DNA from: a virus
Direction: 5' to 3' (one strand)
DNA length: 51,627 bases
IMG/VR virus record: IMGVR_UViG_3300017917_003407
Span: 1 to 51,627 of that record
Below, in pieces: positions 27,906 to 32,473 of this stretch (positions are counted from its first letter, which is position 1; every line of letters begins with the position of its first letter). The notes under the pieces were generated by a model. It ran no database searches, had not been told where the DNA came from, and saw only the letters and a list, made by a program, of their open reading frames with translations. A program made the position numbers and the translations under genes.

Positions 27906-28625
27906 ATGCCTTTACCTAAAATTGCTACACCAACATATGAGTTGGAAATTCCTTCATCAAAAAAATTAATCAAATTTAGACCTTTTCTTGTTAAGGAAGA
28001 AAAGATCTTGATTATTGCGATGGAAAGTCAAGATAATAAACAAATTGGAAATGCAGTTAAAGAAGTAATATCAAACTGTATTTTAACCAAAGGAATTAAA
28101 GTTGATGATCTCGCTACATTTGACATCGAGTATTTGTTCTTAAATATTCGTGGAAAATCTGTTGGTGAGTCTGTAGATATTTTAATTACATGTCCAGATG
28201 ATAATGAAACTCAAGTTCCAGTAAGTATTAATCTTGATGACATTCGTGTTCAAACAAAACCAGAACACACAAGAGATATTAAACTAGACAATAATCTTAC
28301 GATGAGAATGAAGTATCCTTCATTGAGTGAGTTTATTAAGAGTAATTTTAATACTGAAGATGATGTAACTGTTGATGATTCTTTTGATTTGATTTGTTCT
28401 TGTGTAGAGCAAATTTATAATGAAGAAGAATCATGGGCTGCATCCGATTTTAGCAAAGAAGAATTAAATGATTTTCTTGAACAACTGAGTTCAAAGCAGT
28501 TTAAAGAAATTGAAAAGTTTTTTGATACAATGCCAAAACTCTCTCATACTATTAAAATTAAAAATCCAAACACAAAAGTTCAGAGTGAAGTAGTTCTGGA
28601 GGGACTATCGGCTTTTTTCGCGTAG
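27906..28625 (+). CDS. gp26: Baseplate hub / tail assembly chaperone protein
   Basis: A 239-residue protein of the T4 gp26 (base plate protein, PF12322) type: PTYELEIPSSKKLIKFRPFLVKEEK is seen across residues 7-31, followed by IGNAVKEVISNCI. The last sense codons are GCT TTT TTC GCG before TAG. A slippery T-TTT-TTC at 28613-28619, a GGAGGG element upstream and a 9-bp hairpin downstream form a -1 frameshift signal that would fuse it to gp51. The next large gene is a tape-measure candidate, matching the universal order of frameshifting tail chaperones. Confidence 0.82.
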   Translation: MPLPKIATPTYELEIPSSKKLIKFRPFLVKEEKILIIAMESQDNKQIGNAVKEVISNCILTKGIKVDDLATFDIEYLFLNIRGKSVGESVDILITCPDDNETQVPVSINLDDIRVQTKPEHTRDIKLDNNLTMRMKYPSLSEFIKSNFNTEDDVTVDDSFDLICSCVEQIYNEEESWAASDFSKEELNDFLEQLSSKQFKEIEKFFDTMPKLSHTIKIKNPNTKVQSEVVLEGLSAFFA

Positions 28626-28653
28626 GTATGGCTCATGAAAGTCTTGAGTCATA
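28598..28653 (+). other. Programmed -1 ribosomal frameshift signal
   Basis: The elements in order are: internal Shine-Dalgarno-like GGAGGG (28598-28603); nine bases; slippery heptamer T-TTT-TTC (28613-28619) in the correct phase for gp26; seven bases; hairpin TATGGCTCA (28627-28635) with TGAGTCATA (28645-28653), 9 bp with one G-U. After a -1 slip the frame reads CGC GTA GGT ATG GCT, entering the gp51 frame with no stop between. The geometry is that of E. coli dnaX. Confidence 0.8.
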
Positions 28654-28798
28654 CTACAAAACTAATTTTGCCATGATGCAGCATCATAAATACAGCTTGA
28701 CAGAATTAGAAAATATGATTCCCTGGGAACGGGAAATTTATGTGACTCTTTTACAACAATATATTGAAGAAGAAAATCTTAAAAATCAACAATCCTAA
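28628..28798 (+). CDS. gp51: Baseplate hub assembly protein / chaperone C-terminal part
   Basis: A 56-residue protein (MAHESLESYYKTNFAMMQHH, then YSLTELENMIPWEREIYVTL). The ELENMIPWER.IY motif matches gp51-type proteins of T4-like phages and resembles the C-terminal 'T' part of frameshifted tail assembly chaperones. It may be made alone from ATG 28628 or as a gp26-gp51 fusion. No Shine-Dalgarno is obvious before its ATG, which supports the fusion. Its stop overlaps the next ATG (TAATG). Confidence 0.7.
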   Translation: MAHESLESYYKTNFAMMQHHKYSLTELENMIPWEREIYVTLLQQYIEEENLKNQQS

Positions 28799-30648
28799 TG
28801 GCAGTTATAGAGTCGCCACTATCTAAAGCTCTTCAGGGCGGTTTAATTCAAAGAACTGTTGCAAGCAGCAGTGTTTTTAGTGGCGGTCTTCGTTTAAATC
28901 CAATTAGTTCTGGACCAGATTTTCAAGCACTTGCACAAACAAGTCAAAACAGTAGTGATATTGTAACACTAAAAAATCAAATTGGCGATCTTAGATTACA
29001 AGTTGATTCATTAGTTAGACAAAATGCTCAACTTTTTGCAGATATTGGTCAATTAACTGTAGTTAAAAGACAAGTTAATGATCTTCAAAATCAGATTAAT
29101 ACCATAAATTCAACAGTAATTTCTATCGCTAACAAACCAGATACATCTGGTGAACAAATATTAAGACTCACAGCGGACGTTGCAGATAATAAAAATACAA
29201 TTATACAATTATTAAAACAAATTGATAATCTAAGAGACCAAAATAAGCAGATTATACTTGGCGTAACTAATAATATTACTCAAATTCAGCAACAAGTTAA
29301 TGGACTTCAAGAACAGGTTGTTGACTTTAGTACAGCACTTGATAGAATTGCAGTAATTATTGCAAATACAAGTGCACTTGATCAACAGAAAAGTCAGTTT
29401 GAAAATGAACAAGAAAGAAGAAATTCAGAAATAGGACTTAGAAGAGGTAAAGAAAAATCATTAGAAAATAGAATTCAAGATGCACTTACCGAACCAGTTA
29501 AAAGAATAGGAAATAAACTACAACTTGGACTTGGTAATTTACTACAAGCATTATATTTTATTTTTGGTGGGTGGTTAACAAATCAAGTTCTCAATTTATT
29601 TAATGCATACTCAAGTAAAAATTGGGAATTATTTAATAAAATTAAAGAATCAATTATTAGAAATACTCTTATTGCAGTAAGAGGTTTATTACTTGTAAAA
29701 GGAGGTTTTTTTAAATTAATAGGTGGTATCTTAGATCTTGCAAAAATGATTGGAAAATTCTTAATTATAAATCCAATTAAAATGTTATTCCAGGGAGCAA
29801 GAAATTTATTAACTGGTGGTAAGGATGTAAAAGCAGCAGCCGAAGGAACTGAATTGGCAACAAAAGTTGCTGGAGAAGGTGCTGAGTTGGCAGCTAAAAA
29901 AGGTGCTGGTAAATTTTTAGGAAAATTTATACCTGGATTAAGTGCTGTTATTGGTGGCGCATCTGCAATTCAGAATGTGTCTGAAGGAGATTATGGGGGT
30001 GCTTTACTAGATGTTGGATCTATGTTACCTGTTGTTGGAACTGCTTTTGCAGTTGGATCTCTTTTATATGAAACAGTTGGACCTGGAGCAAAATTAGCAG
30101 AGGAAAGATCTAAAGGTTCATCTACAAAGGAATTAAGAAAAAACTTTGAAAAAACGCAAGCATCTCCACAGCAATCAGCAATACCATCAAGTATATCTAC
30201 TGCATCAGTAGCAGCACCTTCTGTTACTCCAGCAAGACCACAAACACCAATGATGCAGCAGTCTGCTACACCTTCCGCTGCAACTCCTACAAAATCAATT
30301 CAAACACCAGAAACTACTTCTACTCCAACAACACCATTAACTCCAACTGCTGCTTCTTTTAGCATAGATACAACTAATCAATTTAAAGCGTTTGAAAACT
30401 TAGAAGATAATAAAATAACTCCGGCACAAACTCAAAATATTCCATCAAAACCAGCACCTGGACCAGAACCACCAGCAAAACCAAATATTATATACACACA
30501 AACTGGAACTTCTAAACCACAAATACCTACTGGACCTGAACCAACTAGAGGTGGTTCGGTATCTGAGGTTCCTTTTATTCCTTCATCTGATCCTGATAAT
30601 TTTTATACATTATATTCACAAGTTCACTATAATGTAGTAACGACATAA
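28798..30648 (+). CDS. Tape-measure / baseplate hub candidate
   Basis: A 616-residue protein. Residues 55-220 are coiled coil (SSDIVTLKNQIGDLRLQ, NDLQNQINTINST, QVNGLQEQV). Residues 245-440 contain hydrophobic helices (LLQALYFIFGGWLTNQ, IPGLSAVIGGASAI, LPVVGTAFAVGSLL). Residues 450-600 are Pro/Thr/Ser-rich linkers. Coiled coil plus membrane-active segments is the tape-measure pattern, and T4 gp29 is of similar length (about 590). It lies directly after the gp26/gp51 chaperone pair. The family is inferred, not recognised residue by residue. Confidence 0.55.
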   Translation: MAVIESPLSKALQGGLIQRTVASSSVFSGGLRLNPISSGPDFQALAQTSQNSSDIVTLKNQIGDLRLQVDSLVRQNAQLFADIGQLTVVKRQVNDLQNQINTINSTVISIANKPDTSGEQILRLTADVADNKNTIIQLLKQIDNLRDQNKQIILGVTNNITQIQQQVNGLQEQVVDFSTALDRIAVIIANTSALDQQKSQFENEQERRNSEIGLRRGKEKSLENRIQDALTEPVKRIGNKLQLGLGNLLQALYFIFGGWLTNQVLNLFNAYSSKNWELFNKIKESIIRNTLIAVRGLLLVKGGFFKLIGGILDLAKMIGKFLIINPIKMLFQGARNLLTGGKDVKAAAEGTELATKVAGEGAELAAKKGAGKFLGKFIPGLSAVIGGASAIQNVSEGDYGGALLDVGSMLPVVGTAFAVGSLLYETVGPGAKLAEERSKGSSTKELRKNFEKTQASPQQSAIPSSISTASVAAPSVTPARPQTPMMQQSATPSAATPTKSIQTPETTSTPTTPLTPTAASFSIDTTNQFKAFENLEDNKITPAQTQNIPSKPAPGPEPPAKPNIIYTQTGTSKPQIPTGPEPTRGGSVSEVPFIPSSDPDNFYTLYSQVHYNVVTT

Positions 30649-30649
30649 T

Positions 30650-32473
30650 ATGGCAATCACATCTGCTATTAATTTTGCAAGAATTACAAGTGGAGTCAGA
30701 TCTCTTTCAGGTGGACTGAAAAGGATGAAAGATTCTACTGGAAAAATGCAAAAGTATGTCTTAAATGTTTATAATGTAAAAAGAAAAAACTTTGCCGAAT
30801 CAAAAACTCTAACTGCGAAAAGAGATGAAATGATTCGTATTAAAGATCGTGAAGAAGAAGCAGATGCAGCATCATCAAGAAGTAAAATTTTTTCTAGACC
30901 TTATAGTGCACTAGTTCGTAGTACAAAGGGATTTTTGGGAAGACTGATGGATTTTCTTGGATCTTTATTAGTTGGATGGTTACTTTATAATTTACCATCT
31001 ATTGTTGCAATGGTAAATGATACAGTATCTAGAGTTTTCAAATTATTTAATTTGTTAAAAAGTTTTGTAAGTAATTTGATAGGAGCATTTATTAATTTTG
31101 GAAATGTTCTTGGAGCAGTCTTTAAAAATGTTGTCACACTTGATTTTTTTGATACATCAAAACGTCTTGAGAATGCTGTTGGTGAATTGAATAGTAATTT
31201 TGGTCAAATGAGAAAAGACTTTGAAGATGGTTTAAAATTATTTACAACACCACTTGGGGAATTACCAGGTGAAGAACCAGTAGCAGCACCTGGAACTGAT
31301 TATACGAGACAAGTTTCTGGATCTGAACAACAAAAAACAGAATCTTTATTAGCAGGATATGAAGGATTTAGAACAAAAGCTTATTTGGATGCTGTAGGAG
31401 TTCCTACTATAGGATTTGGACAAACGAGAATAAATGGAAGGTCAGTTAGACTTGGTGATGTAATGACCAGAGAACAAGGAAAAGAGGGATTAAGAGAAAA
31501 TATTCAAAGTCATAGAGCTCGTGCTATTGCTCAAGTTGGTCAGTCTAATTGGGAAAAACTTCCAGAAAATGTAAGAGTCGCATTGACATCGATTGCTTAT
31601 AATTATGGAAGTCTCCCTCAAAGAATTATGCCTGCAGTAAGAAGTGGAGATCCTGAAGCAATAGCAAGAGCAATAGAAGGATTAAGTGGAGATAATGGCG
31701 GAATTAATGCTTGGAGAAGAAAAGATGAAGCTAGATTTATTAGAACTGGAACAAGTACTAGAGCTGATAAATCTTTTCTTACTGCAGTACCAGGATCTAG
31801 TCCATCAACTCCATTAGTAACTCCTACTCAATCGAGATCTGGTAAAGGTAATGGAATGTTAACGCCTCAAGATCTGATTAAAGTTAAAAATTTATCATAT
31901 GCTCCAGACTATCGAGACTGGTATGGTAGTAGTGCTATGTTAAATCCAATTGCAGGCAAAGCATTTCTTGCTGCTCAACAAGAATATGGTAAAGATATTC
32001 CAATTAATAGTGCTTATAGAAGTGTCAAACATCAACAAGCAATACAAGGAAGTTATGGTGTTGTTGCAAAACCAGGAACATCAAGACATGGTTTAGGACT
32101 AGCTCTTGATCTTGAACCAAATACTCCTGCTTATAATTGGTTAAAGAAAAATGGACCAAAATTTGGATGGTTTTATGCAGCAATTCCTGGAGATCCATAC
32201 CATTTTGAGTATAGGGGTGGAGGTGTCTCACCAACACAAGGTATATCTCCAGGACAAATTGCCTCAACTCCAAGTTTACCTCCAACAGCATTAATGCCCA
32301 ATAGACAAGGACCGCAAATTACTATAATTGATAATAAGAAAAGAGATCTTCCGCCTCTTGCAAGTCAAGGTGGAAATAATGGAGGTACTGTTCCAATACC
32401 TGAAACTTCCCCAACAGAAGTGTTAAATAATATGGTAAGAAAACAAATGTTACTAGATCTAGCATACACATAA
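30650..32473 (+). CDS. Hub-associated peptidoglycan hydrolase: lysozyme + M15 peptidase
   Basis: A 607-residue protein. Residues 80-165 are hydrophobic helices (LGSLLVGWLLYNLPSIVAM) like those in the preceding protein. Residues 230-375 are a GH24 T4-lysozyme-type domain with the E-8-D-5-T-like pattern in AGYEGFRTKAYLDAVGVPTI and GFGQT. Residues 430-525 are a VanY/M15 D,D-carboxypeptidase-like domain with the zinc motifs TSRHGLGLALDLE and PYHFEY. A Pro-rich tail follows. It probably degrades host peptidoglycan at infection, replacing the lysozyme domain missing from gp5 in this phage. Confidence 0.75.
   Translation: MAITSAINFARITSGVRSLSGGLKRMKDSTGKMQKYVLNVYNVKRKNFAESKTLTAKRDEMIRIKDREEEADAASSRSKIFSRPYSALVRSTKGFLGRLMDFLGSLLVGWLLYNLPSIVAMVNDTVSRVFKLFNLLKSFVSNLIGAFINFGNVLGAVFKNVVTLDFFDTSKRLENAVGELNSNFGQMRKDFEDGLKLFTTPLGELPGEEPVAAPGTDYTRQVSGSEQQKTESLLAGYEGFRTKAYLDAVGVPTIGFGQTRINGRSVRLGDVMTREQGKEGLRENIQSHRARAIAQVGQSNWEKLPENVRVALTSIAYNYGSLPQRIMPAVRSGDPEAIARAIEGLSGDNGGINAWRRKDEARFIRTGTSTRADKSFLTAVPGSSPSTPLVTPTQSRSGKGNGMLTPQDLIKVKNLSYAPDYRDWYGSSAMLNPIAGKAFLAAQQEYGKDIPINSAYRSVKHQQAIQGSYGVVAKPGTSRHGLGLALDLEPNTPAYNWLKKNGPKFGWFYAAIPGDPYHFEYRGGGVSPTQGISPGQIASTPSLPPTALMPNRQGPQITIIDNKKRDLPPLASQGGNNGGTVPIPETSPTEVLNNMVRKQMLLDLAYT

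Follow-up and report, generated by a model that had tools for sequence, protein, structure and literature searches.

Do the neighboring genes gp26 and gp51 of a marine T4-like phage encode two separate proteins, or do ribosomes join them by slipping back one base near the end of gp26? The question is raised by a T4-like cyanophage in IMG/VR (virus record IMGVR_UViG_3300017917_003407), the whole 51,627 nt of which was analyzed and is referred to here as the window. The evidence set out below makes it very probable, at the level of nucleic acid and predicted protein, that a programmed −1 ribosomal frameshift fuses gp26 to gp51 in a tail assembly chaperone (TAC) gene, yielding a short form (TAC-N) and a long form (TAC-NC). 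On this reading the annotation of the pair, which belongs to the core genes of oceanic viruses of a very common group, needs correction, and many of their records omit gp51. Coordinates of the features are collected in Table 1.

Table 1. Features of the gp26–gp51 locus and its downstream gene in the window.
Feature	Coordinates	Strand	Evidence
gp26 ORF, 239 aa; short chaperone form (TAC-N)	27906..28625	+	PF12322, E 2.4e-75; phrog_150, E 8.4e-83
Shine-Dalgarno (SD)-like GGAGGG; candidate stimulator	28598..28603	+	Sequence; anti-SD duplex energy; GAG codon bias
Slippery heptamer T_TTT_TTC, gp26 frame	28613..28619	+	Sequence, phase, conservation
Downstream hairpin, 10-bp stem GTATGGCTCA/TGAGTCATAC; holds gp51 ATG	28626..28654	+	Minimum free energy (MFE), covariation
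−1 frame extension (gp51, TAC-C); with gp26, putative long form TAC-NC	28613..28798	+	phrog_634, E 7.1e-28
Annotatable gp51 ORF	28628..28798	+	Within −1 extension
616-aa gene; tape-measure candidate by position and size	28798..30648	+	1-base overlap with gp51 stop

The Slippery Site and the −1 Frame

The 3′ end of gp26 reads GCT TTT TTC GCG TAG. The initial annotation had described a complete bacterial-type frameshift signal at this point, and its description was borne out part by part: the heptamer is present and in phase with gp26, GGAGGG lies nine bases 5′ of it, a 7-base spacer leads to a 9-bp stem (28627–28635/28645–28653), and the −1 path from gp26 into gp51 is free of stops. Counted from the last base of the gp26 stop codon, the −1 frame opens 37 nt earlier and stays open as far as the gp51 stop at 28798, about 57 codons beyond the gp26 stop; the predicted peptide across the junction of the fusion contains LSAFFRVGMAHESLESYY. 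Among the 44 ORFs of at least 100 aa in the window (16,652 codons), an in-phase TTTTTTC is found at the end of gp26 alone, and the gp26 site is also the sole in-phase T6N or A6N heptamer from which −1 reading continues for at least 40 codons past the stop.

Conservation Among Relatives

The relatives compared were 199 distinct IMG/VR loci, picked by similarity of the gp26 protein alone, with no use made of the site itself. In every one of them a T6 heptamer stands in phase exactly at −10 from the stop (198 TTTTTTC, 1 TTTTTTG) and −1 reading meets no stop for 48–69 codons. The comparison of junctions that had been suggested as a check thus upholds the heptamer and its phase (199/199) but not the hairpin, which is kept in some clades only; neither loss of the heptamer nor an interrupting stop, the outcomes named as contrary to the proposal, occurs in the 199 relatives, but the Vibrio phages D509 and K474 have no slippery heptamer in their gp26/gp51 pair. 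In these two phages the pair is possibly expressed in a third way, or from another slip site; in K474 the gp51 start overlaps the gp26 stop. A heptamer with an open −1 frame is found in the Kyanoviridae, including one Methylophilales phage (TTTTTTT), in Straboviridae of Vibrio, Aeromonas, and Citrobacter, in Otagovirus, and in one Variovorax phage; Rhizobium phages carry the variant TTTTTTG, also with an open −1 frame.

Codon usage within gp26 bears on what maintains the site. Among approximately 100 conserved gp26 codons in 78 loci, synonymous variation is zero at TTT TTC alone, and Phe codons elsewhere in gp26 of these loci are divided between TTT (74%) and TTC (26%). Judged by this pattern, the slippery site is conserved beyond the constraint of the protein.

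Candidate Stimulatory Elements

The duplex of the SD-like stretch with the anti-SD has an energy of −10.2 kcal/mol, against a gp26 background with a mean of −2.4 and a minimum of −8.0, and 67 of 78 relatives use GAG for the Glu codon within the element, vs. 30% elsewhere in gp26. Downstream, an extra pair (G28626–C28654) extends the stem to 10 bp (28626–28635/28645–28654) and leaves a spacer of 6 nt; the 51-nt segment 28620–28670 folds with an MFE of −16.3 kcal/mol (z −4.9), a stability reached by 0 of 200 shuffles. Across 53 distinct sequences 90.8% of the cells of the stem are paired, vs. 25–44% in slid controls, and changes on both sides of the stem account for 27 cells, nearly all at one pair. 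There, the wobble base of an Ala codon tracks the second base of a Glu/Ala/Val codon (GCU/GAG, GCG/GCG, GCA/GUG), with about 16 state changes on the gp26 tree and complementarity in 72 of 77 sequences; because the Ala third base switches together with its Glu/Ala/Val partner, the stem is kept. Sub-threshold Rfam matches, e.g., of mir-1302 to the hairpin, were rejected as chance.

The SD-like element and the covarying hairpin are candidate stimulators in the clade of the window and are not universal among the relatives. The clade of S-CAM4 has a strong hairpin (median z −3.7) with the SD mostly absent, most of the Vibrio, Aeromonas, and Rhizobium relatives show an SD-like stretch but no strong hairpin, and elsewhere there is an SD-like stretch only, or neither element. 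That marine T4-like phages hold the heptamer fixed and let the stimulators turn over around it strikes us as an evenly balanced proposition; if true, such turnover would provide a natural series on how stimulators tune the ratio of TAC-N to TAC-NC. For studies of how frameshift stimulators act on cyanobacterial ribosomes, the covarying hairpin can itself serve directly as a test case. Four loci (L016, L017, L022, and L024) have CCCTCTCCC in place of the usual GTATGGCTCA arm after the gp26 stop, and both the hairpin and the gp51 ATG are gone from them; the C-rich run of CCCTCTCCC could pair instead with the GGAGGG 5′ of the slippery site.

Identity of gp26 and gp51

The alignment for the structure prediction of gp26 drew on the window and on loci of its relatives, and the resulting AlphaFold2 model has a pLDDT of 86.6. 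When the predicted N-domain (residues 1–95) is compared with solved structures by VIA-align, the three best are all tail assembly chaperones, with Z-scores of 7.1–8.0 and the next row at 4.7, although a Z near 8 can come from a common arrangement: the HK97 TAC 2OB9 (Z 8.0, 3.9 Å, 84 residues), 3FGX (Z 7.9), and YqbN 3KLU (Z 7.1), the last of which we take to be a PBSX-type tail chaperone. A Foldseek search of the model against the PDB gave no significant match (2OB9, E 2.2), and searching PDB sequences with the gp26 profile brought up no chaperone. There is moderate support from the model for a TAC fold in the N-domain of gp26. The fourth VIA-align match is 5IR0 (Z 4.7), ORF19 of a PICI-like element of Vibrio cholerae, which might be a satellite relative of a tail chaperone, or a chance match.

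Domain architecture provides a second line of evidence. Escherichia phage mogra (Mosigvirus, a T4 relative) and 44RR carry gp26 and gp51 as separate genes, one on each strand, and their gp51 (~250 aa) combines a complete PF12322 domain with the short C-domain of cyanophage gp51; in the window, the phrog_150 profile that covers gp26 also matches gp51 at profile positions 239–278. A short and a long form sharing the N-domain are provided by separate genes in mogra and 44RR and by a predicted frameshift here. The T4 type encodes the long form as a gene of its own, and most other groups examined appear to use slippage; assignment of gp26 as TAC-N and of gp26–gp51 as TAC-NC is supported.

The tape-measure gene that the initial annotation placed downstream finds agreement in the position and size of the 616-aa gene but not in any family match: the product has no PHROG or Pfam match above the cut-off, the viral contigs searched hold no relatives of it, and genes 3′ of other gp51s give only weak tape-measure matches. 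The protein has two marginally hydrophobic segments, and the gene is a candidate tape measure. Two genes past gp51, at 30650–32473, is a 607-aa protein that combines a phage lysozyme domain with a VanY/M15 peptidase domain.

It is unlikely that the fusion is made but that gp26 and gp51 are hub-assembly catalysts unrelated to chaperones of the lambda G/GT type. Their long-standing annotation as hub assembly chaperones and the lack of a recognizable tape measure in the gene after gp51 are consistent with such a role; against it are the first three places taken by tail assembly chaperones in the fold match, the N and N+C architecture shared by the frameshifted and separate-gene forms, and the identification of gp26/gp51-type proteins as TACs already in print, as described in PMC10885494.

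Fusion vs. Separate Translation of gp51

Start codons near the junction bear on whether gp51 is made as part of a fusion. The first 15 codons past the heptamer contain no ATG, GTG, or TTG in 38 of the 199 loci (example, FFRIALFHNTLEGYYKTNF) and lack an ATG in 76; with no start near gp51 in those 38 loci, the fusion is the likely product. In the window, the gp51 ATG at 28628 lies two bases past the gp26 stop, inside the stem of the hairpin. These facts can be set against a model in which gp51 is a separate protein made by termination–reinitiation at the ATG past the gp26 stop, with the heptamer a by-product of Phe–Phe codons. In favor of such a model, 86 of the 199 relatives share the position of this ATG, and the annotated gp51 starts of Rhizobium, Vibrio QD01, and Vibrio K474 phages overlap the gp26 stop, but the loci without starts, the invariance of TTT TTC while other Phe codons vary, and the hairpin, which would bury the gp51 ATG, make it very improbable as the explanation of the locus. 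Slippage by RNA polymerase rather than the ribosome is scarcely credible: the six T's are copied as six U's, on which polymerase could in principle slip, but the run is six T's followed by C or G in 199/199 loci and never longer there, polymerase slippage usually needs longer runs, and slippage by the ribosome accords with the phase, the SD-like element, and the hairpin alike.

Under the preferred reading, ribosomal frameshifting, cyanophage gp51 is probably not an independent protein but the C-terminal end of a frameshifted fusion; in the window some free gp51 may also arise by separate or coupled translation. In GenBank, gp51 is unannotated in the records of ACG-2014d, S-WAM1, and S-CAM4 and truncated in that of S-RIM2. 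Among the GenBank cyanophages with gp51 missing or truncated (L082–L085), most lack a usable start codon; a joined CDS would be the more accurate annotation.

Proposed Mechanism

Most ribosomes would stop at the gp26 stop codon and release TAC-N. A fraction would slip one base back on U_UUU_UUC by tandem slippage, in which two tRNA-Phe move from UUU UUC to UUU UUU, aided in this clade by upstream SD pairing and the downstream hairpin. The shifted ribosomes would then read CGC GTA GGT ATG and onward, adding a 56-aa gp51 domain to gp26 to give the minor form TAC-NC. By analogy to lambda G/GT, TAC-N and TAC-NC would together coat the tape measure and recruit tube subunits. Three points here are inferred: ribosomes slip often enough to be useful, the tape-measure protein is coated by both forms in tail assembly, and its gene is the one downstream. 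Conservation, missing starts in many relatives, RNA covariation, domain architecture, and fold together make the gp26–gp51 fusion, proposed in the initial annotation as the T4-like counterpart of lambda G/GT, best read in just that way.

Comparison With Known Systems

A 2022 study of T4-like tail assembly chaperones reportedly found frameshifting to be a conserved feature of several T4-like groups, with T4 relying on its genes 26 and 51. The scheme of TAC-N and TAC-NC in T4-like phages comes from that study (Vladimirov, Gautam and Davidson, Virology 2022, as described in PMC10885494 and PMC12846349), which is also cited for poly-T frameshift signals in their TAC-N genes (PMC12846349). The gp26–gp51 frameshift proposal is supported by the present analysis, yet according to these accounts a system of its kind was already published in 2022 for T4-like phages: the kind of phage and the gene, the poly-T slippery sites, and the two forms are the same as in the window, whereas separate genes are reported for T4 itself. 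These accounts of the 2022 work make no mention of a covarying hairpin, of stimulator turnover, or of a survey of marine relatives; what is added here is the depth of conservation, a covarying dnaX-like hairpin, possible turnover of stimulators while the heptamer stays fixed, and a reason for the “short gp51.” The literature search returned no open paper that directly states gp26–gp51 frameshifting in cyanophages and no ribosome profiling study of cyanophages. Cyanophage gp51 was remarked in 2010 to be without ~200 N-terminal residues (PMC3037559), which can be explained because those residues come from gp26.

At the TAC locus of the Vandenendeviridae and Andersonviridae, a −1 shift occurs at a conserved GTTTTT with an open −1 frame in all genomes (PMC12846349); these are other phage families than that of the window, and the reported motif is shorter (PMC12846349). 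In lambda gpG/gpGT, a short tail chaperone gene likewise has near its end a −1 frameshift that yields a minor longer form; the gp26 N-form, which is not known to resemble lambda G in sequence, is longer than that of lambda and has an added C-terminal mixed region. The lambda slippery sequence, reportedly G GGA AAG, differs from the heptamer of the window. The signal of E. coli dnaX has its SD-like element, homopolymer heptamer, and hairpin in the same order and at similar spacing, but there the heptamer is A_AAA_AAG and frameshifting yields the shorter product, whereas the U_UUU_UUC of the window would yield the longer one.
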